From the NCBI GenBank assembly GCA_020438485.1, contig JAGQUM010000024.1, positions 1 to 40,837 of the forward strand: a stretch of DNA of 40,837 bases, in the 5' to 3' direction. Within the stretch, counting starts at the first letter, position 1. Each line of letters opens with the position of its first letter. Source of the DNA: Thermoleophilia bacterium (GTDB taxonomy: Bacteria; Actinomycetota; Thermoleophilia; Miltoncostaeales; Miltoncostaeaceae). The notes below the pieces were generated by a model. It saw only the letters and a list, made by a program, of their open reading frames with translations. It did not search any database and was not told the origin of the DNA. The translations under genes and the position numbers were made by a program. Positions 1,839-15,489 of the stretch are shown piece by piece.

Positions 1839-3326
1839 CTACATGATCGGCGCGTGACCCGCGGCGGGGGCCTCGGTGTGGCGCGGGATCAGGATGAGCG
1901 CGGCCAGCAGGCCGATGACGGCCATGCCCGCGGCCACCCAGAACGCCGCGTGGAAGCCGTCCACCATCGATGTGGCCACCAGGTGTCCCATGGCCTGGTC
2001 GGGGTTGGCGCCGTTCTGAATGGCCTGCTGGGCGGCCGCCTGGCCGTCCTCGACCCTGTTGTCCTTCACCGTGAACGCGACGGTGGACAGCAGCGCCAGG
2101 CCCACGGCGCCGCCGATCTGCTGGGACGTGTTGATGAGTCCCGACGCCGCCCCGGCCAGCCGCGGCGGGACGCCCTGCAGCGCCGCGATCGAGACGGGGA
2201 TGAACGAGAAGCCCATCCCGATGCCGGCCACGATGAAGCCCGGCACGAGGTCGCGCGGGTACGTGCCGTTGACGCGGATGAACGCGAAGTACGCGAGTCC
2301 CGCGAGCAGCAGCGCCATGCCGATGGCGAGCACGGGCCGGACGCCGATCCTCGTGACGAGGGCCTGAGACGCGCCGGCCGCCAGGATGATGGTGACGGCG
2401 AACAGCAGGTAGCGGGTGCCGACGCCGACTGCGCTGTACCCCAGCACCTGCTGCATGTACAGGGACAGGAAGAAGAACATCGCGAAGATCGCGGCGCCCA
2501 GGAGGAAACCGACGACGTTGGCGCCCAACAGGCTGCGGTTGCGGAAGATCTCCAGTGGCAGCAGCGGCCCCTTCACGCTGCGCTCGATCACCAGGAACGA
2601 CAGCAGCAGCAGGACGGCGACCGCCAGACACGCGATGGTCAGTGGCCTGGTCCACCCGTGGGTCTGGGCGTGGACGAGGCCGTAGATGAACAGCGCCTGG
2701 CCGGCGGTGACCACCAGGGCCCCCAGCGCGTCCAGGTGGTGGTCGCCTTCGCCGACGCTCTCGTCGACGAAGCGGGGCACCAGCGCGAACACGATGAGGC
2801 ACACCGGCAGGTTGATCAGGAAGATCCAGTGCCACGACGCGTACTCGACCAGGTATCCGCCGGCCAGCACCCCGACGGCGCCGCCGATGCCGGCAATCGC
2901 GCCCCAGATGCCCAGCGCCTTGTTGCGCTCGGGCCCCTCCTCGAAGATGGTGGTCAGGATCGACAGGGCCACGGGCGACACGATCGCCGCGCCCGCTCCC
3001 TGCAGCCCGCGCGACAGGATGAGCATGACCTCGGTCTGCGCGAACCCGCACAGCGCGGAGCCCGCGGCGAACACCACCAGCCCGGTCAGGAACATGCGGC
3101 GACGGCCGAACAGGTCGCCCAAGCGCCCGCCCAGCAGCAGCAGGCCGCCGAACGCCAGCGTGTACGCGCTGAGGATCCACTGAAGGTTGGCCTCGCTGAA
3201 GTGGAGGTCCTCCTGGATGGTCGACAGGGCGACGTTGACGATGGAGACGTCGATCACGAGCATGAACTGCGTCAGGCTCAGCAGCACCAGCGCGATCCAG
3301 CGCCGGTTGTCGTGTGCGTCGGTCAC
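1839..3326 (-). CDS. MFS drug:H+ antiporter, DHA2 (EmrB/QacA-like, 14 TMS)
   Basis: 495-residue major facilitator protein. The first helix (ALVLLSLTQFMLVIDVSIVN) carries the acidic D of DHA2 drug exporters. The MFS motif A loop GGRLGDLFGRRR follows, and then a motif C-like helix (LQGAGAAIVSPVALSILTTI). The length and about 14 hydrophobic segments fit the EmrB/QacA family, which exports hydrophobic or cationic compounds using the proton gradient. The frame stays open upstream, but the GTG at 3324-3326 is chosen because it has a good ribosome binding site (AAGGGGAG) and gives the usual short cytoplasmic N-terminus. No TetR/MarR gene adjoins it and the substrate cannot be predicted. Confidence 0.9.
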   Translation of the reverse strand: MTDAHDNRRWIALVLLSLTQFMLVIDVSIVNVALSTIQEDLHFSEANLQWILSAYTLAFGGLLLLGGRLGDLFGRRRMFLTGLVVFAAGSALCGFAQTEVMLILSRGLQGAGAAIVSPVALSILTTIFEEGPERNKALGIWGAIAGIGGAVGVLAGGYLVEYASWHWIFLINLPVCLIVFALVPRFVDESVGEGDHHLDALGALVVTAGQALFIYGLVHAQTHGWTRPLTIACLAVAVLLLLSFLVIERSVKGPLLPLEIFRNRSLLGANVVGFLLGAAIFAMFFFLSLYMQQVLGYSAVGVGTRYLLFAVTIILAAGASQALVTRIGVRPVLAIGMALLLAGLAYFAFIRVNGTYPRDLVPGFIVAGIGMGFSFIPVSIAALQGVPPRLAGAASGLINTSQQIGGAVGLALLSTVAFTVKDNRVEDGQAAAQQAIQNGANPDQAMGHLVATSMVDGFHAAFWVAAGMAVIGLLAALILIPRHTEAPAAGHAPIM

Positions 3327-3553
3327 GCGGTTGCTCCCCTTCGGACGGTTCGGTGCGGCGAACGGCCGGGGAACGCTACTCCGGCCGCCGTCTGACCGCC
3401 CGGGTGGCGGTGACACGCCGGCGTCACGCCTCCCGGGCCCGCCTCCGGCGCCCCGGGCGGGCCTCCGACGACCCGGGCGGTGTGCGCCCGGCACGGGGGC
3501 GGTAGTCTGGGCGGACGGCGTCTCACGGCGCGCACACGACCCAAGGAGCTTCC

Positions 3554-3880
3554 GTGAGCACGAACCCACCGATGCCCCCCATCCCGCCCGCGGCGGGTGG
3601 CGCGCCGGCGGAGCCGAAGATCGAGACGTTCACCCAGCACGACACCGAGCGCGACCTGTTCCACTGCTCGTACGGCCCCATCCAGCCGGGACGGGCCGTG
3701 TGGGACCCCGAGCGCGAGGTTCAGGTGCGCCTCGACATGCACTCGCAGCGCGTCATCGGGTTCTCGATCCCCGAGTTCACGAAGTGGTACGAGAAGCACG
3801 CGGACCCCGAGGGGGGCTTCGAGATGGACCTGCCCGACTTCTGGCCGGAACCGGTCGAGGAGACGCCCGCCGAGGGGTGA
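3554..3880 (+). CDS. small conserved-looking hypothetical protein, 108 aa
   Basis: 108-residue soluble acidic protein with a good ribosome binding site (AAGGAG, 3542-3547) before the GTG start. A Pro/Ala-rich head (residues 1-20) leads into a compact core with aromatic and charged residues (VWDPEREVQVRLDMHSQRVI, then GFSIPEFTKWYEKH). The beta-strand/turn pattern vaguely recalls DUF2283/YuzE-type mini-proteins, but I do not recognise it with confidence. No signal peptide or membrane segment. A possible -10 box (TAGTCT) lies at 3503-3508. It converges on the SOS-box gene at 3894-4160 with only 13 bp between their stop codons. Confidence 0.75.
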   Translation: MSTNPPMPPIPPAAGGAPAEPKIETFTQHDTERDLFHCSYGPIQPGRAVWDPEREVQVRLDMHSQRVIGFSIPEFTKWYEKHADPEGGFEMDLPDFWPEPVEETPAEG

Positions 3881-3893
3881 GCGGCGCCGGGAA

Positions 3894-4160
3894 TCAGGCG
3901 GCCATGAGGGCCGCCACTCCCCCGGGCCCCGCCCGCAGGATCTGCGCCGAACGGCGCGCGTCGCGCGCCTGCTCGCGCGCCTTACGCTCGCCGACGGCAT
4001 CGCCCGCCAGGCGGCATTCCTCGGCCTCGCGCTCGGCGCGCGAGGCGAGGTCGTCGATGCGCTGGGCCATGCGCTCGGCGCGGCCCACACGGCGCCGGCG
4101 GCGGGGCGGGGACGACCCGGTGTCGGCGCCGGTGACGAAGAGCGTGAGCTGGGGCTCCAT
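3894..4160 (-). CDS. SOS-box-controlled small basic helical protein
   Basis: 88-residue protein I do not recognise. After MEPQLTLFVTGADTG come an Arg-rich patch (PPRRRRRVGRAER) and a long charged, Ala/Arg/Glu-rich helix (about residues 27-75) likely to form a coiled coil or helical hairpin. It is strongly basic, so binding to nucleic acid is possible; that is inference. The start is well supported: ATG at 4158-4160 is preceded by AGGAGG at 5-nt spacing. A perfect actinobacterial/Bacillus-type LexA palindrome (4172-4189) lies 11 nt upstream of the start codon, so induction by DNA damage is predicted. It stands alone and is not next to lexA, recA or imuB. Confidence 0.75.
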   Translation of the reverse strand: MEPQLTLFVTGADTGSSPPRRRRRVGRAERMAQRIDDLASRAEREAEECRLAGDAVGERKAREQARDARRSAQILRAGPGGVAALMAA

Positions 4161-4171
4161 CTGCGACCTCC

Positions 4172-4189
4172 TACGAACATGTGTTCGTA
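4172..4189. promoter_or_regulatory. LexA (SOS) box
   Basis: The sequence TACGAACATGTGTTCGTA consists of 7-bp inverted arms around a 4-bp spacer. It matches the CGAAC-N4-GTTCG consensus of Bacillus and actinobacterial LexA at every fixed base. It lies in the promoter/leader region of the leftward 88-residue gene, next to a -10-like TATCGT (minus strand, 4189-4194). Confidence 0.85.
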
Positions 4190-4364
4190 CGATAGTTCAC
4201 CCGTCGGATGTCACCCCCCGCGGCGCGAGGGGCGCGTGGTGACGCCGTGCCCCTCCATCGACGCGGCGCGGTCCTCACTTGAGCGGGACCACCACATGTG
4301 GGGTGTGACGCGCCGCCGGGGTCCGTCGGTGCCCCAGATGGCGTCCCCGGGGGCCGGCGGCCGA

Positions 4365-6768: not shown

Positions 6769-7173
6769 ATGGAGATCACACGCGCCTCGATCGCCACCCA
6801 GGCCGGACCCGCCGAGTGGTTCACGGGCACGGTCCACATCGACCCCGTGGCCGCGCCGTCCGCGTCGTCCACGGTGGCGTCCGCGTGGGTGCACTTCGCA
6901 CCCGGGGCACGCACGGCGTGGCATACCCACCCGCACGGGCAGACCATCTTCGTCACCGAGGGCGTGGGCCGCTGCCGTCGTCGGGGCGGGCCCATCGAGG
7001 AGATCCGCGCCGGCGACAGGGTGTTCTTCGCGCCCGGCGAGGACCACTGGCACGGGGCGGCGCCAAACCGCTTCATGGCGCACATCGCCATCCAGCAGGT
7101 CGACGAGACGGGCAGTGCCGTGACGTGGGGCCGCCACGTCACGGACGCCGAGTACGGCGGCCCTGAGGCCTAG
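6769..7173 (+). CDS. small cupin resembling Mn-dependent hydroxynitrile lyase (GtHNL type)
   Basis: 134-residue single-domain cupin. Metal ligands are readable as His52, His54 and Gln58 in WHTHPHGQTIFVTEG, and His93 in GEDHWHGAAP. Known family: small bacterial cupins of this pattern include the manganese hydroxynitrile lyase of Granulicella tundricola. From memory its ligands are H53/H55/Q59/H94, and A40, V42, H106 and Q110 line its pocket; here A39, V41, H105 and Q109 occupy the matching places. Many relatives are simply annotated 'cupin' or sit with carboxymuconolactone-decarboxylase-like enzymes, so the reaction is not certain. The ATG has a GGAGGAG ribosome binding site. Its stop codon overlaps the convergent ftsH stop in a shared CTAG. 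Confidence 0.85.
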   Translation: MEITRASIATQAGPAEWFTGTVHIDPVAAPSASSTVASAWVHFAPGARTAWHTHPHGQTIFVTEGVGRCRRRGGPIEEIRAGDRVFFAPGEDHWHGAAPNRFMAHIAIQQVDETGSAVTWGRHVTDAEYGGPEA

Positions 7174-9107
7174 CCCCGCCCCCCCGCGATGGGGTCCTCG
7201 GCCTGTCGCTCCGTGGGCGACAGACGCGACAGGATCGGCCGGGGGCCCAGCAGCGCTCGGATCTCCTCGCCGTCCAGCGCTTCCTTGGCCAGCAGTTCCT
7301 GAGACGCTCGCTCCAGCACGGCGCGGTGGCGCTCGAGCAGCTCGGTGGCGCGGTGGAACGCGTCGCGCACCAGCTTCTGGGCCGCGCGCTCGATGTCCTC
7401 CTGGCCGTGGACGCCGGGTGCACCGGGCAGCCCCACGAGCAGGCTCTCGTCGGTGCGGGCGCTCGACATGGCCACGTCGCGGGCCATCCACCGGGCCGTT
7501 GCGGCAGCCTTCTGCAGGTCGTCCGCCGCGCCGCTGGTGAACTCGCCGAACACCAGCTCCTCGGCGGCGCGGCCCGCCAGAGCCACCGCGAGGCGCTCGA
7601 TGCACTCCGTGCGGGTGCGCAGGAACCGGTCCTCGGTGGGCAGCATGATCGTCACGCCCAGGGCTTGGCCCTGCGGGATGACGGTGACGCGCTCGACCGG
7701 GTCGCACGTGGAGCTGAGGTGGCTCACCAGCGCGTGGCCGATCTCGTGGTAGGCCACGAGACGGCGCTCCTCCTCGGACAGGATGCGCGTGCGCTTCTCG
7801 GGACCGGCGGCCAGACGCATGAGGGCCTTGCGGAAGTGCGGCAGCTCCAGCGTGGGCGACCCGTGGCGGGCCGCCTCGAACGACGCCTCGTTGCAGAGGG
7901 CGGCCAGGTCCGCGCCGGCGAGGCCGGCGGTCATGGCGGCGACCCGCTCGTCGACGTCCGGCAGCGTCGTGGGCCGCTCGCGCAGGTGGACGGCCACGAT
8001 CTCGCGGCGGGCCTGGCGGTCTGGCAGTCCCACCGCGATCTTGCGGTCGAACCGCCCGGAGCGGGTCAGCGCGGGATCCAGCTCGTCGAGGCGGTTCGTG
8101 GAGGCCAGCACCACGACAGGGCGGTCCGGGTCGGTGCCGAAGCCGTCGATCTCGGTCAGCAGCTGGTCGAGGGTCTGCTCGCGCTCGCCGGACCCCGCCT
8201 CGCCCGTGCGCTTACCTCCCACCGCGTCGATCTCGTCGATGTAGACGACGGCGGGAGCGGCCTTGCGGGCCTGCTCGAACAGCTTGCGGATGCGGCGCGA
8301 GCCGAGGCCGGCGTACACCTCGACGAACTCGGAACCCGACACGCTGAAGAACGGCACGTCGGCCTCGCCGGCGACGGCGCGGGCGAGGAGCGTCTTGCCG
8401 GTGCCGGGGGGGCCGTGCAGGATCACGCCCTTCGGCAGCCGGGCCCCGACGGCGCGGTAGCGGTCGGGGTCGCGCAGGGCGTCGGAGATCTCGGCCACCT
8501 CGTCGCGGATCTCGTCGATGCCGGCGACGTCGTCGAAGCGCACGGGCGACTCCACCGGCTTCATCCGGTGGGCGAACCGGGCGCCGCCCATCATGCGCAG
8601 CGCGTAGGCCGTGACGCCGATCAGGCCCAGCATCAGCAGCATCGGTCCCCACGTCTGCAGCCAGCCCGACAGGTCGAACCCACCCGGCTCGGCGGGCGCG
8701 TCGAGGTGCGTCAGCACGACGTCTTCGCGCTCCACGGTCAGGGGGACCCCCCCGCGGCGGGCCGCGTCCAGCACCTGGGACGTCAGTTGCGGCAGCAGCG
8801 CGGCCTCCCGCGAGCCGGTCGCGGTGTCGAGGCGCAGCGTCGGCGACGACGTGGGCCCATAGATGACCGCGGCCTTCGCGCGGCCTCGCGCGAGGTCGGC
8901 GATGGCGCGCGACAGCGGCACCACCTGGACTGGCCGGACGACAGTGGCGGCCGCCGGGCCGGGCGCGGCCGCGGGGGCCGGCGCCGTGGAGGCCGGCGAC
9001 GCGGCGTTCGCGCCGCCGACCGGCAGCGCGAGAGCCAGTGAGGCCAGGAGGGCGCTGACGCGGCGAGTTCTCATGTGGAAAGGGAAGCGGTCGACACGGA
9101 CATCCAC
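7170..9107 (-). CDS. ftsH: FtsH-type membrane AAA+ zinc metalloprotease
   Basis: 645 residues from the GTG at 9105-9107; an in-frame ATG at 9072-9074 (634 residues) is equally plausible and begins right before the signal/anchor segment. An Ala/Pro-rich region and a small extracytoplasmic domain (about 60-165) follow. Then come the second membrane helix (MLLMLGLIGVTAYALRMM), the AAA module and the protease domain. The AAA module has VAGIDE, Walker A GPPGTGKT, Walker B VVYIDEIDA and SRH RSGRFDR. The protease has zinc motif HEIGH and third ligand Asp in ADDLQKA. It degrades unfolded membrane and regulatory proteins. The pore motif reads EVYAG, with Tyr replacing the usual Phe, so it may be a second, divergent FtsH. 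Function as a protease is secure. Confidence 0.93.
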   Translation of the reverse strand: MDVRVDRFPFHMRTRRVSALLASLALALPVGGANAASPASTAPAPAAAPGPAAATVVRPVQVVPLSRAIADLARGRAKAAVIYGPTSSPTLRLDTATGSREAALLPQLTSQVLDAARRGGVPLTVEREDVVLTHLDAPAEPGGFDLSGWLQTWGPMLLMLGLIGVTAYALRMMGGARFAHRMKPVESPVRFDDVAGIDEIRDEVAEISDALRDPDRYRAVGARLPKGVILHGPPGTGKTLLARAVAGEADVPFFSVSGSEFVEVYAGLGSRRIRKLFEQARKAAPAVVYIDEIDAVGGKRTGEAGSGEREQTLDQLLTEIDGFGTDPDRPVVVLASTNRLDELDPALTRSGRFDRKIAVGLPDRQARREIVAVHLRERPTTLPDVDERVAAMTAGLAGADLAALCNEASFEAARHGSPTLELPHFRKALMRLAAGPEKRTRILSEEERRLVAYHEIGHALVSHLSSTCDPVERVTVIPQGQALGVTIMLPTEDRFLRTRTECIERLAVALAGRAAEELVFGEFTSGAADDLQKAAATARWMARDVAMSSARTDESLLVGLPGAPGVHGQEDIERAAQKLVRDAFHRATELLERHRAVLERASQELLAKEALDGEEIRALLGPRPILSRLSPTERQAEDPIAGGRG

Positions 9108-9626: not shown

Positions 9627-11267
9627 TCACGAGCCGCCCAGGTAGCGCCTCCAGCCGCCGAACCGGGTGATGTCCTCGGCCCCGCCGAGCGCCCACGGCT
9701 CGCAGATGAACCCCTTCACCACGGCGCCGTCGGCCAGCGCCACGTTCCCGATACCCAGAGGTGGGGGGACCTCCCGGCAGAACGCGCCGAACGCGGCCGC
9801 GTCGAGCCGCCACACCTCCACCTCGATGGCGGAGCCGCCGCCCGGGGCGCGCACCAGGCCGGGCTTCGGCGGCGTGGTGTCGGGCAGGCGGTACAGGCGG
9901 TAGTCGGCGGCGGTGGTCGTGCGCGCCTCCAGCCGGGCGCCGCGGGACGTCAGCTGGTGGTTGAGGGGCTGGCCCGACAGGTGTGCCCCCACCACCGCCA
10001 AAGCGATCGACCGGTCGGCCGCGGCCACCGCCGCGCGCCGGCCCACGTGGCACACCAGCGCATCGCCGAACGCGGGCGCCACCAGCTGCAGGCCGAACGG
10101 CGCGCCGCTGCCACGCGCGCCCGCCGGCACCGAGACGGCGCACAGGTCGAGCAGGTTCACGAAGTTCGTGTACGTGCCCAGACGGGCGTGGACGCCGTTC
10201 GGGTCGGCCAGCGTCTCGGCCAGCGTCGGCGCGATGGGCGTGGTGGGAAGCGCCATCACGTCCATTTCGGCCCAGCGGGCCGCCGTCTCGGCGCGCAGTT
10301 GGTCCAGGCGGTAGCGGCCGCGGAACGCGTCGGCCGCCCCGATGCCACGCGCGGCCAGCACCACGTCGCGCACGACGGGGTGCACATCGTCGGGGTGGGC
10401 CTCGATGAAGTCCCCGACGGCCGCGTACCGCTCGGCCACCCACGGCCCCTCGTACAGCAGGCGGGCCGTCTCCAGGAACGGGCCGACGTCGACCTCGACG
10501 ATGCGGGCACCGTCGCGGCGGAGTCCGTCGACGGCGTCCGCGAACAGGGCCGCGGCCTCGTGGTCGCCGTACCACTCCAGCCGGTCGGCGGCCGGCACGC
10601 CCACGCGGGGCGCCGCCGACGCCGCGGCCGGCACCGGACACGGGGGAGCGCCCGGGTCCGCGATGGCGCCGAGCGCGCGCCACGCCTCATCGACGGTGCG
10701 GGCGAACACCGACACGCAGTCCAGGCTGCGACACGCCGGCACGACGCCTTCGCGTGTGACAAGGGCCTGCGTGGGCTTCAGCCCGACGATGCCGTTCATG
10801 GCCGCGGGCACGCGGCCCGAGCCCGCCGTGTCGGTGCCCAGCGCCACGTCCACGAGCCCGGCGGCCACGGCCACGGCCGACCCGCTGCTGGATCCCCCGG
10901 CGATGAACCCCGGGGCGGGGACGGACTCCAGCGGGCCGTGGGGGGTGCGCGTGCCCACCAGGCCGGTCGCGAACTGGTCCATGTTCGTGGTGCCGACCAC
11001 CACGGCCCCTGCGGCCTCGAGGCGCCCGACGCACGGCGCGTCACGCGCGGGGGCGTACGCGAAGGCCGGGCAGGCCGCGGTGGTGGGCAGGCCGGCCACG
11101 TCGATGTTCCCCTTGACCGCGGCCAGCCAACCGGCAAGCGGCCCGGCCGCCGCGGCGGCGGCGGCGCGGGCGGCGACGTCCGCGCCGTCCCTGCGGTCGA
11201 TCCAGACGTTCGCGGGCGCGGCGGCGATGCGGGAGAGCGCGTCGTCGAGGCGGGCGCGGCCGCTCAC
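9627..11267 (-). CDS. atzF: allophanate hydrolase
   Basis: 546-residue amidase-signature enzyme that splits allophanate into two CO2 and two NH3. The catalytic triad can be read as Lys in AAVKGNIDVAG, the cis-Ser in GGSSSGSAVAVA and the nucleophile Ser in TDTAGSGRVPAA. After about residue 440 comes the small C-terminal domain of AtzF/DUR1,2-type enzymes (RLEARTTTAADYRLYRLPDT onward, ending in ITRFGGWRRYLGGS). The GTG start overlaps the carboxylase stop codon as GTGA, so it is the last gene of a translationally coupled operon. Together with the carboxylase it completes nitrogen release from urea or, more probably here, guanidine. Confidence 0.95.
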   Translation of the reverse strand: MSGRARLDDALSRIAAAPANVWIDRRDGADVAARAAAAAAAGPLAGWLAAVKGNIDVAGLPTTAACPAFAYAPARDAPCVGRLEAAGAVVVGTTNMDQFATGLVGTRTPHGPLESVPAPGFIAGGSSSGSAVAVAAGLVDVALGTDTAGSGRVPAAMNGIVGLKPTQALVTREGVVPACRSLDCVSVFARTVDEAWRALGAIADPGAPPCPVPAAASAAPRVGVPAADRLEWYGDHEAAALFADAVDGLRRDGARIVEVDVGPFLETARLLYEGPWVAERYAAVGDFIEAHPDDVHPVVRDVVLAARGIGAADAFRGRYRLDQLRAETAARWAEMDVMALPTTPIAPTLAETLADPNGVHARLGTYTNFVNLLDLCAVSVPAGARGSGAPFGLQLVAPAFGDALVCHVGRRAAVAAADRSIALAVVGAHLSGQPLNHQLTSRGARLEARTTTAADYRLYRLPDTTPPKPGLVRAPGGGSAIEVEVWRLDAAAFGAFCREVPPPLGIGNVALADGAVVKGFICEPWALGGAEDITRFGGWRRYLGGS

Positions 11268-14200
11268 GGCGCGTCCACGATGGTCACCAGCGCCTGGCCC
11301 GGCGTCACGAGGTCGCCCGGCCGGCAGCACACCTCACCCACGGTGCCGTCGCGCGTCGCGGTGACGTCAACCTCCATCTTCATCGCCTCGAGCACCACCA
11401 CGACGTCTCCCTCCCTGACGGGGGTCCCGGGTTCGACCTCGACCCTCCACACATTGGCCGCCAGATGCGCATCCACGCGGTCTCCCACGGGGCCGGTGCC
11501 GTTCGCACCGACCTCCGCCTCGGGCGCCGGCGCGGCGGGCGGCGGGGCGGCCGCCCACCGGGCGCGTTCCTCGGCGAACGCCGCCTGGCGACGTTCCACG
11601 AACGCGCCGGTCTCGTCGGCGATGCCGGCCAGGAACTCGCGGTACTCGCCGAAATCGAGCTCGGTCGCCGTGATGTCCAGGTGCCGCGTGCCGTCGCGCA
11701 CGCCCGCCCGCCACGCGGCGAGCTCGTCGGACGACACCTCCACGAAGCAGACCTGGTCGAACGGGCGCAGTAGCCACGGCACACCCTCCGCGAAGTCGCG
11801 GGTGACGCGGTACGTGTTCCACACCGGCACCGTCCGCCCCACCAGCTGGTAGCCGCCGGGCCCCTCCATGCCGTACACGCACATGTAGGCGCCCCCGATG
11901 CCCACGGCGTTCTCGGGCGTCCACGTGCGGGCGGGGTTGTACTTGGTCGTGACCAGCCGCTGACGAGGGTCGAGCGGGGTCGCCACCGGCGCGCCCAGGT
12001 ACACGTCCCCGAGGCCCATGACCAGGTAGTGGGCGCCGAACACGACGTCGCGCACCCGCTGGACGTCGTCCAGCCCGTTGACGCGCCGGATGAACTCCGT
12101 GTTGCTGGGGCACCAGGGGGCGTCCGGGCGCACGGAATGCATGTAGCGCTCGACGGCCAGCAGCGCGGCCCGGTCGTCCCACGCCAGCGGCAGCCGCACG
12201 ATGCGGCTGGGGACGGTCATGGCGGTGCCCGCAGGGAGAGTCGCCTCCACGTCGCGGGCCAGCTCGAGCGCGTTCTCCACCGTCATCGCGCGCGGGTCGA
12301 CGTGGATCTGCAGGGAGCGGATGCCCGGCGTCAGGTCGGTCACGCCCGGCACCGCCCGCGCCTCGAGCGCGGCGGCCAGCGCATGCACGCGCAGGCGCAA
12401 CGCCAGGTCCAGCTCCATGGGCCCGTACTCCACCAGCAGGCTCTCGCTGCCGCTGCGCCGGTACGTCACCGCCGGGGTGTCGTCGCCCTCCGGGATGCGC
12501 CCCATGACAGCGTCGCGCACCGGGGCGCGCGGCGCGGGCGGAACGGGCGGGGCGGCCAGGTCGGCGACGGCCCGGTCGCGGGCCTCCGCCGCGGCGTGCG
12601 CATCGTCGGGGTGCACCAGGCGCAGGCGGACGGTGTCGCCGGGCGACAGCTGGCCGAGCTTCCACAGCTCGTGGCGGGCGACGGTGACCGGGCACACGAA
12701 CCCGCCCAGGCTGGGCCCGTCGGGCCCCAGCACGACGGGCATGTCACCCGTGAAGTCCACGGCGCCGACGGCGTACGGCGTGTCGTGGATGTTGGACGGG
12801 TGAAGGCCCGCGTCGCCGCCGTCGGGGCGCACCCAGACAGGTGCGGGCCCCACAAGCCGCACGCCAGTGCGGTCGCTGTTGTGGTGGACCGTCCACGGCT
12901 CGGCCAGCATCGTGTCGATGTACTCGGGCGCGAAGAAGTCGGGCGCGCCGTGCGGGCCGTACAGCACGTCGATGGTCCACTCCGCGCCGATCGCGGGCCG
13001 CAGCGCGTGCGGGCACGCGGCGGGCGGTGCGGGCTCGTCCTGGGGGGCGGGGTCGACGTGGAGGGCGGGGTCGAGGCGCAGGACGTCGCCCGTGCGCAGC
13101 GCGCGGCCGCCGTGCCCCCCGAAGCCGCCCAGCGCGAACGTGGTGCGGCTGCCCAGGTAGCGGGGGGCCCGCCAGCCGCCACGCACGGCCAGGTACCCGC
13201 GGGCGCCCGGGCCCACCACCTGGCCCAGCCGCAGCTCGCCGCCCGCCGGCACGGCGCGCGGCTCCCACAGGGGCACGGCGAGGCCGTCGACCGTGGCGCC
13301 CATGTCCGCGCCGCCCAGGCAGATCACCGTCTCCACGGCGAATCGCAGCGTCGGGCCGATGCGGGTCATCTCCAGCACGGCCGCGTCGGACGGGTTGCCC
13401 AGGATTCGGTTGGTGAGGCGGTGCGAGAGGTCGTCCATGGGGCCCGACGGCGGCACCCCCACGGCCCAGTAGCCGAGGCGCCCGGGCCAGTCGTGCAGCG
13501 CGGACACGAGGCCCGGGGAGATCACCTCGGCGGTCGCCGTGCGGTGGTCAACGCCGGACAGCGCGGCCGTCACGGGGGCTCCCTCGGCGAACGGCCCGTG
13601 CCGCACGGCATCGCGCAGCAGCGGCAGGTTCGTCTCGACGCCCCACACCTCGGTGGCGTCCAGGGCGGAGGCCAGCAGGCGCAGCGCCTCCGGGCGGTCG
13701 GCGCCGTGCACGACGATCTTGGCCAGCAGCGGGTCGTAGTGGGGCGTGACCTCCGTCCCGGCCTCGATCCACCCGTCCACGCGGGCGTCGTCCGGCCACT
13801 CCACGGCCGTGATCGTGCCGACGCTGGGCCGGAAGTCGCGGGCCGGATCCTCGCTGTACACGCGGGCCTCGACGGCATGGCCCTCGGGTTCCCGGTCGTG
13901 CCAGCCCGCCAGCACGTCCTCGCCGCACGCCAGGCGCACCATCCACTCCACGAGGTCGATGCCGAGCACCGCCTCCGTGACGGGATGCTCCACCTGCAGG
14001 CGGGTGTTGACCTCGAGGAAGTAGGGCTCGTGCGTGTCGGCGTCGAGGAGGAACTCCACGGTGCCGGCCGAGCGATACGCGACGCGCTCACACAGCGCCA
14101 CCGCCGCGTCGCGCAGCCGCGCCCGCGTGGTGTCGGGCAGGTCGGGCGCCGGGGACTCCTCCAGCACCTTCTGGTTGCGCCGCTGCAGCGAGCAGTCGCG

Positions 14201-14881
14201 GTCGCCCAGCGCGACGACGCGGCCCCGCCCGTCGCCGAACACCTGCACCTCGACGTGGCGGGCGCGGGCGACGTAGCGCTCGAGGAAGACGTCGGCGGCG
14301 CCGAAGCTGGCCGCCGCCAGGTGCCCGACGCGGGCGAACTGGTCGCGCAGCGCGCCGGGCGTGTCGCAGATGGCCATGCCGATGCCGCCGCCACCCGCCG
14401 TGCTCTTGAGGATCACCGGGTAGCCGATGCGCTCCGCCTCGGCCGCGGCCTCGTCGGCATCGTCCAGCACGCCCGTGCCCGGCAGCAGCGGCACGCCGCA
14501 CTCCCGGGCGAGGTCGCGCGCGGTGTCCTTGCGCCCGAACGCGCGGATCTGGGCGGGCGTGGGCCCGCAGAACCCGATCCCGGCGGCCTCCACGGCCTCG
14601 GCGAACGCGGCGTTCTCGCTGAGGAACCCGTACCCCGGGTGCACGCACGCTGCCCGGTGGGCGCGCGCCGCGTGCACCACGGCGTCGGCCCTCAGGTAGC
14701 TGTCGGACGGAGCGGGACCGCCGATGCGCTCGGCGACGTCGGCCTCGCGCACGTGCGGCGCGGCCGCGTCGGCGTCGGAGTACACGGCGATGCCGGTGCC
14801 CCCCATCTCCCGGACGGTGCGCAGCACGCGCCGCGCGATCTCGCCGCGGTTCGCCACCAGCACGCGGGGGTCGCCGCTCAC
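11264..14881 (-). CDS. uca: biotin-dependent urea carboxylase, probably guanidine carboxylase
   Basis: 1205-residue multidomain enzyme. Order: biotin carboxylase (1 to about 450; RVLVANRGEIARRV, ATP loop STAGGGGIGM, RDCSLQRRNQKVLEE); KipA/AHS2-like carboxyltransferase half (about 470-780; HDWPGRLGYWAVGVPPSGPM); KipI/AHS1-like half (about 810-1090; SESLLVEYGPMELDLALRLR and YNPARTWTPENAVGIGG); and a biotin carrier domain at the end with the biotinyl Lys in LEAMKMEV. It carboxylates urea or guanidine with bicarbonate and ATP. Known: enzymes encoded with UAAP1/UAAP2 were shown to prefer guanidine (Schneider et al. 2020), and both UAAP genes lie directly upstream. The GTG start overlaps the UAAP2 stop (GTGA). 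Enzyme class is certain; guanidine preference is inferred. Confidence 0.95.
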   Translation of the reverse strand: MSGDPRVLVANRGEIARRVLRTVREMGGTGIAVYSDADAAAPHVREADVAERIGGPAPSDSYLRADAVVHAARAHRAACVHPGYGFLSENAAFAEAVEAAGIGFCGPTPAQIRAFGRKDTARDLARECGVPLLPGTGVLDDADEAAAEAERIGYPVILKSTAGGGGIGMAICDTPGALRDQFARVGHLAAASFGAADVFLERYVARARHVEVQVFGDGRGRVVALGDRDCSLQRRNQKVLEESPAPDLPDTTRARLRDAAVALCERVAYRSAGTVEFLLDADTHEPYFLEVNTRLQVEHPVTEAVLGIDLVEWMVRLACGEDVLAGWHDREPEGHAVEARVYSEDPARDFRPSVGTITAVEWPDDARVDGWIEAGTEVTPHYDPLLAKIVVHGADRPEALRLLASALDATEVWGVETNLPLLRDAVRHGPFAEGAPVTAALSGVDHRTATAEVISPGLVSALHDWPGRLGYWAVGVPPSGPMDDLSHRLTNRILGNPSDAAVLEMTRIGPTLRFAVETVICLGGADMGATVDGLAVPLWEPRAVPAGGELRLGQVVGPGARGYLAVRGGWRAPRYLGSRTTFALGGFGGHGGRALRTGDVLRLDPALHVDPAPQDEPAPPAACPHALRPAIGAEWTIDVLYGPHGAPDFFAPEYIDTMLAEPWTVHHNSDRTGVRLVGPAPVWVRPDGGDAGLHPSNIHDTPYAVGAVDFTGDMPVVLGPDGPSLGGFVCPVTVARHELWKLGQLSPGDTVRLRLVHPDDAHAAAEARDRAVADLAAPPVPPAPRAPVRDAVMGRIPEGDDTPAVTYRRSGSESLLVEYGPMELDLALRLRVHALAAALEARAVPGVTDLTPGIRSLQIHVDPRAMTVENALELARDVEATLPAGTAMTVPSRIVRLPLAWDDRAALLAVERYMHSVRPDAPWCPSNTEFIRRVNGLDDVQRVRDVVFGAHYLVMGLGDVYLGAPVATPLDPRQRLVTTKYNPARTWTPENAVGIGGAYMCVYGMEGPGGYQLVGRTVPVWNTYRVTRDFAEGVPWLLRPFDQVCFVEVSSDELAAWRAGVRDGTRHLDITATELDFGEYREFLAGIADETGAFVERRQAAFAEERARWAAAPPPAAPAPEAEVGANGTGPVGDRVDAHLAANVWRVEVEPGTPVREGDVVVVLEAMKMEVDVTATRDGTVGEVCCRPGDLVTPGQALVTIVDAP

Positions 14882-15489
14882 GCGTCGCACTCCCTGACGA
14901 TCAGGCGGATGGGCGTGGGGTCGAACCCGTTGCACGGGTTGTTGACCTGCGGGCAGTTCGAGATGACCACCAGCGTGTCCATCTCGGCGCGCAACTCCAC
15001 GTACAGGCCCGGCGACGAGATGCCGTCCACGATGCCCAGCGTGCCGTCGGGCTCCACCGGCACGTTCATGAACCAGTTGATGTTGCTCACCAGGTCGCGC
15101 TTACCCAGCCCGTGGCGCCCGGCGGCCTGCAGGAAGTTCTCGACGCACGCATGCTGGTGCTTGGTGTGGTGGCCGTAGCGCAGCGTGTTCGATTCCTGGC
15201 TGCACGCGCCGCCGATGGTGTCGTGGCGGCCGCACGTGTCGTCCACCACCGTCATCATGACGTTGCCCTCGCCCGAGATCAGCCGCGAGCCCGTGGTGAG
15301 GAAGATGTTGCGCTGCGCCGCGATGGTGTCGGGCGCGCTGTAGCGCTCGTCGGTGCGGTGGGCGTTGTACAGCAGGCAGTCGACGGCCTGGTTGCCGCCC
15401 TCGTCGACGATGCGCAGGGTCTGGCCGGCGCGCACGACGCCGCTCCACGGGGCCCGGGCGGGCACCACCTCGTCCAGGATCACGCTCAC
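14878..15489 (-). CDS. urea carboxylase-associated protein 2; carboxyguanidine deiminase subunit
   Basis: 203-residue DUF1989 protein (UAAP2 type). Conserved stretches include AGQTLRIVDEGGNQAVDCLLYN, TCGRHDTIGGACSQESNTLR, SNINWFMNVPV and the C-terminal SNCPQVNNPCNGFDPTP. The cysteines and histidines could hold a metal or form the active site. Known: UAAP1 and UAAP2 form a heteromeric carboxyguanidine deiminase that turns the carboxylase product into allophanate and ammonia. It is clearly a paralogue of the upstream UAAP1 protein and keeps more of the Cys residues. GTG start overlaps the UAAP1 stop as GTGA, so the two subunits should be made in equal amounts. Confidence 0.92.
   Translation of the reverse strand: MSVILDEVVPARAPWSGVVRAGQTLRIVDEGGNQAVDCLLYNAHRTDERYSAPDTIAAQRNIFLTTGSRLISGEGNVMMTVVDDTCGRHDTIGGACSQESNTLRYGHHTKHQHACVENFLQAAGRHGLGKRDLVSNINWFMNVPVEPDGTLGIVDGISSPGLYVELRAEMDTLVVISNCPQVNNPCNGFDPTPIRLIVRECDA

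Follow-up and report, generated by a model that had tools for sequence, protein, structure and literature searches.

An 88-codon gene in the 40,837-nt stretch of DNA analyzed here (the window) lies behind a perfect LexA box, which raises the questions of whether its product belongs to the DNA damage response and, if so, what it acts on. The gene occupies positions 3894 to 4160 of the minus strand and encodes a protein of 88 residues (P0001), as given by the open reading frame list and its translation. The sequence-only reading had described a palindrome with 7-bp arms and the consensus CGAAC-N4-GTTCG directly before a strong ribosome binding site and an ATG. Both observations were confirmed: on the minus strand, the box (TACGAAC-ACAT-GTTCGTA) spans 4172 to 4189, with its core CGAACATGTGTTCG at 4174 to 4187, and is followed by the ribosome binding site GGAGG at 4167 to 4171, 6 nt upstream of the ATG (4160 to 4158). 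On the other side of the box, a predicted promoter of the PafBC/P1 type (4189 to 4208, minus strand) consists of TCCG at 4208 to 4205, a gap of 10 nt, and the −10 element TATCGT at 4194 to 4189. The −10 element and the LexA box overlap by one base, and the box also overlaps the predicted transcription start; from 4208 to 3894, the minus strand thus reads TCCG-N10-TATCGT, TACGAACACATGTTCGTA, GGAGG, ATG, and the 88-codon gene. A convergent gene on the plus strand (3554 to 3880) encodes a conserved 108-residue protein of unknown function and stands beside the 88-codon gene in eight loci among those compared. Elsewhere in the window, the minus strand carries a gene for an FtsH-like AAA+/M41 protease (7170 to 9107) and a large gene for a biotin carboxylase fused to a carboxyltransferase (urea-carboxylase-like; 11264 to 14935).

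We searched the window and the whole source genome (G000; 2.58 Mb, 95% complete) for LexA operators. The perfect form CGAACN4GTTCG occurs only once in the window, at the 88-codon gene, and 18 times in the genome, compared with no occurrence of the reversed control pattern; the relaxed form GAACN4GTTC occurs 42 times in the genome, compared with 11 for its reversed control. The lexA gene (contig C87, 12030 to 12224) has its own box, GAACACCTGTTC, at 12245 to 12256, close to the coding start, and boxes also precede recA (C51), imuB and dnaE2 (both C4), and dinB (C67). The regulon lists given here for G000 are the product of pattern searches; recA, imuB, dnaE2, and dinB were named by translation, the last three also by Pfam or NCBIfam. 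The SOS circuit of this genome appears complete, and the 88-codon gene shares with recA, lexA, imuB, dnaE2, and dinB the CGAACN4GTTCG operator overlapping the promoter that is typical of the LexA regulon of Actinomycetota. It differs from that regulon in that its product could not be assigned to any protein family of the libraries searched. These bacteria, which live in soil and water, have received little study, and a literature search on the SOS response of Thermoleophilia gave nothing relevant.

Other boxes of the source genome lie near genes of various kinds. Another small gene, likewise without a known function (C51, approximately 3209 to 3490, minus strand; product MTAVPHVFPAPSPSRRPLARSIEQSL...) has two boxes upstream, at 3545 and 3588, 43 bp apart; the C-terminal 83 residues of its product gave no Pfam match. 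Two boxes at a contig end (C29, 8 to 45) are located upstream of mraZ/rsmH-like genes, and a P1-type element there faces the opposite direction, so that its gene would lie past the contig end. A further box (C59, 4245) falls within the end of an nrdR-like gene, approximately 150 bp upstream of a ribonucleotide reductase gene identified by eye.

Of 42 genomes from the same taxonomic family (Miltoncostaeales-like, Thermoleophilia), BLAST and profile searches recovered complete homologs in 36, covering 11 of 12 genera; a single genus contributes approximately 20 of these loci, which are not independent, so that 11 genera is the fairer count. Beyond the family, 399 genomes of the class searched with the profile yielded marginal matches only (E = 1e-4). 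A scan of named genomes with the P0001 sequence alone produced no match, and a query with the alignment of its relatives produced 23 named loci, labeled Thermoleophilia or Miltoncostaeales, among others. No recognizable homolog was detected in two genomes of one genus (G007 and G016; 94 and 90% complete), which indicates that the function is dispensable; the other genomes without a complete homolog are incomplete assemblies, one of which has a fragment. In nine homolog pairs, dN/dS ratios of 0.05 to 0.31 indicated purifying selection and hence a real, constrained gene. The family had no significant match in Pfam, NCBIfam, or PDB sequences, in agreement with the earlier description of the protein as uncharacterized and unlike known SOS proteins. 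In PHROGs, the only matches were weak (E of approximately 6e-4) and involved profiles without an assigned function; a tblastn search of phage records found nothing.

A GAACN4GTTC box is present at the gene start in all 36 homologs. Loss of the box from homologous loci, the outcome that the sequence-only reading had named as speaking against its proposal, was thus not seen in any of the 11 genera. The promoter accompanies the gene even where groups of genera differ in the neighboring genes, indicating that the box belongs to the P0001 gene. The box could in principle be a chance palindrome or serve another gene, and some of the 42 relaxed sites in the source genome probably do occur by chance; however, its constant place in the homologs despite changing neighbors, together with the absence of perfect sites from the control search, makes this explanation extremely improbable. 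LexA control of the gene, as predicted from established families, is well supported, and the gene is very probably regulated by DNA damage. The universal presence of the box, the boxed lexA and SOS regulon, and the blank searches of Pfam, NCBIfam, and PDB likewise support the earlier suggestion of an uncharacterized SOS effector.

The second promoter element is also shared among the homologs: TCCG-N10-YAnnnT directly abuts the LexA box in 35 of the 36, and its chance of occurring at the same spot in shuffled 60-nt upstream stretches was approximately 0.0004 per sequence. The P1 promoter of the RecA-independent PafBC regulon in mycobacteria has the consensus tTGTCRgtg-8nt-TannnT (PMC5656591). 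The distance from GTC to TAnnnT is 12 nt both there (PMC5656591) and here, whereas the published nonamer is kept only in part, the upstream half-site being (G)TCCG here and TTGTCRGTG in mycobacteria. In G000, GTCCG-N10-TAnnnT has 20 sites, compared with 9 for a control pattern, and the P1-type element precedes lexA and genes for RuvA, UDG, a UvrD-type helicase, HU, and a sigma-70 factor, among others. The composite of P1 element and LexA box was detected in 125 of 249 genomes of the class, compared with 2 control hits among the genomes listed; the loci read across Thermoleophilia place it before lexA, recA, dnaB, ssb, and LysM genes. The dnaB loci, in which the replicative helicase gene stands behind the composite promoter, belong to other families of the class (L186 to L192, L199, and L200). 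G000 also encodes a 692-residue fused WYL-WCX protein in which each of the two domains occurs twice, the architecture of known natural PafBC fusions (PMC6789036); its match to the PafC helix-turn-helix (29.4 bits) is just below the Pfam cut-off of 32. Judging from these established families, the 88-codon gene may be under PafBC-type control. The dual LexA and PafBC promoter predicted here would resemble that of the mycobacterial mutasome genes, which are under both SOS and PafBC control (PMC10421592).

The operator is unusual in a further respect. In 33 of the 36 homologs, an in-frame start codon lies in the spacer of the box or at the edge of its right arm, in the forms GAAC-ATG-CGTTC (Met-Arg-Ser) and GAACAC-ATG-TTC (Met-Phe). 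A start at this position, a few nucleotides past the −10 element, implies a leaderless mRNA; some of the 33 homologs also have a potential start farther downstream that is preceded by a ribosome binding site. In the window gene, the ATG inside the box is out of frame, and the ATG preceded by GGAGG is used. Such a start codon within the operator sets most P0001 homologs apart from the LexA regulon of Actinomycetota. The dnaE2 gene of G000 also appears to start within its LexA box, and the ATG lies within the box in LysM-domain genes at two loci (L195 and L196; possible SOS division inhibitors).

What the protein may act on is suggested by its N terminus. AlphaFold2, run with 31 homologs, predicted a disordered N terminus and a confident helical hairpin (residues 27 to 52 and 55 to 87; 3900 to 4082, minus strand), with pLDDT block means of 93 to 96 across residues 31 to 70. 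A fold search with the hairpin returned generic helical hairpins, at a best E value of 2. The disordered segment contains the predicted sliding-clamp-binding motif QLTLF (residues 4 to 8; codons at 4137 to 4151, minus strand), of which Q4 and L7 are the sole invariant residues in an otherwise variable N terminus. The pattern Q[LM]xL is present in 36 of 36 N termini, compared with 0.24 expected from shuffled N termini. The clamp-binding consensus is QL(S/D)LF with variants, in which Q matters most (PMC11139829), and the motif of P0001 is of this type, conserved, and located in a segment modeled as disordered. Position 5 is F in the clade of the window and V, I, A, or D in other genera, where clamp affinity could consequently be weaker; two genera have the hexapeptide-like forms QLHLDV and QLRLAV. 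A single DnaN is encoded (C-terminal end YLLMPIRLNG), and in the same genomes the motif of DnaE2 is QLALPL and that of DnaE1 is QESLF. The ImuB motifs of the same species group (QLSVL, QLTLE, QMTLV, QLTLV, and QLALV) drift in parallel with those of the P0001 family, and this parallel makes the strongest indirect case for a tail that reads the local DnaN. From its sequence, the N-terminal tail of P0001 likely binds the clamp. A diverged homolog (G010, contig C90; E = 1.5e-10) has neither the clamp motif nor a box nearby and is a possible paralog. The earlier description of the protein as basic holds for P0001 itself (pI 11.1) and does not extend to the family (pI 5.9 to 11.8), most members of which have a basic, proline- and arginine-rich linker without the charge being conserved. 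The sequence-only reading had mentioned neither the predicted clamp-binding motif nor the PafBC-type element, nor that most relatives have a start codon within the box.

A linear motif as short as four or five residues can be fortuitous or can bind a different partner. An SOS-regulated P0001 might accordingly use its Q-L-x-L tail to bind a partner other than the clamp, such as RNA polymerase or a nucleoid protein, with the hairpin acting on DNA or RNA. The basic linker of most members and the incomplete conservation of F at position 5 are in line with this. However, the charge of the family varies down to a pI of 5.9 whereas Q and L are invariant, and the drift of the motif mirrors that of ImuB, a known kind of clamp binder; we consider a different partner unlikely. 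A cell division inhibitor that stands in functionally for SulA, DivS, or the LysM inhibitors would fit a small, lineage-specific protein under predicted SOS control, and in another family of the class, a LysM gene that starts within the box lies behind the same composite promoter. This role appears improbable for P0001, as none of 31 members contains a LysM or other known domain and the clamp motif is found instead.

The likeness to ImuB, which is also SOS-boxed and whose clamp motifs in the same clade follow the pattern Q[LM]xLV, bears on a further alternative, namely that P0001 replaces ImuA' as an accessory part of the ImuB-DnaE2 mutasome and has no function apart from those proteins. Both imuB and dnaE2 are LexA-boxed in G000, no RecA-like imuA' was seen beside them or behind another perfect box in that genome, and the P0001 motif resembles that of ImuB. 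The co-occurrence of the genes argues otherwise. In G018 (98% complete), an apparent loss of the mutasome has left approximately 110 residues of imuB (locus L174, contig C5) and no dnaE2, yet the P0001 gene persists with its box and promoter and therefore does not encode an obligatory mutasome subunit. Conversely, G007 and G016 keep imuB (with dnaE2 found in G007) without the P0001 gene. We rejected an obligatory subunit on the strength of these three genomes, and a role tied to the mutasome seems quite improbable. Descent from the ImuB C terminus was also rejected, since the alignment of the family profile with that region was limited to the motif; P0001 lacks the Y-family polymerase fold.

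The operator, the second promoter element, their conservation, the motif, and the hairpin prediction can be read directly from the DNA and its translation. With these features in hand, we lean toward P0001 as a small, DNA damage-induced clamp ligand that would modulate replication or repair at forks. The gene would be held off by LexA sitting across its transcription start, and the PafBC-type activator site would provide a second damage input. Upon cleavage of LexA, P0001 would be made, and its disordered QLTLF tail would dock in the peptide pocket of DnaN. The attached hairpin would then block access of the replicative polymerase or bring a partner, and replication would be slowed or handed over at damaged forks. 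The choice between a brake and the recruitment of a repair factor is the part that we hold with the least certainty: the hairpin may be a replication brake or, with nearly the same probability, an adaptor carrying a partner, and we suggest either only tentatively. It is also conceivable, and put forward with similar caution, that P0001 represents a checkpoint protein, i.e., a DnaN-occupying ligand of 90 to 110 residues under LexA and PafBC-type control that slows or re-routes the replisome independently of translesion polymerases.

The P0001 family is new to the libraries searched, and clamp-binding regulators as a kind have precedents. Hda, a clamp-dependent regulator of initiation, also has its clamp-binding motif in a disordered N terminus (PMC11139829); in contrast, P0001 has no AAA+ domain, and its gene is located behind a predicted DNA damage promoter. 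SocB of Caulobacter is a clamp-binding motif protein that fills the DnaN cleft and inhibits elongation (PMC9690074). P0001 would resemble it in having such a motif, with no claim of sequence relation, and differs in that no antitoxin partner was seen adjoining the P0001 gene and a DNA damage promoter is predicted here. We found no precedent for a clamp-binding regulator under LexA and PafBC-type control.

In Thermoleophilia, promoters that join a LexA box to a PafBC-type element, a combination known from mycobacteria, are widespread. SOS genes whose function is unknown mostly offer no clue to their role; in this case, the sequence points to a specific target, the sliding clamp, and predicts the key residues. 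Whether bacteria actively gate their clamp during the SOS response is a question that this predicted target would make testable.
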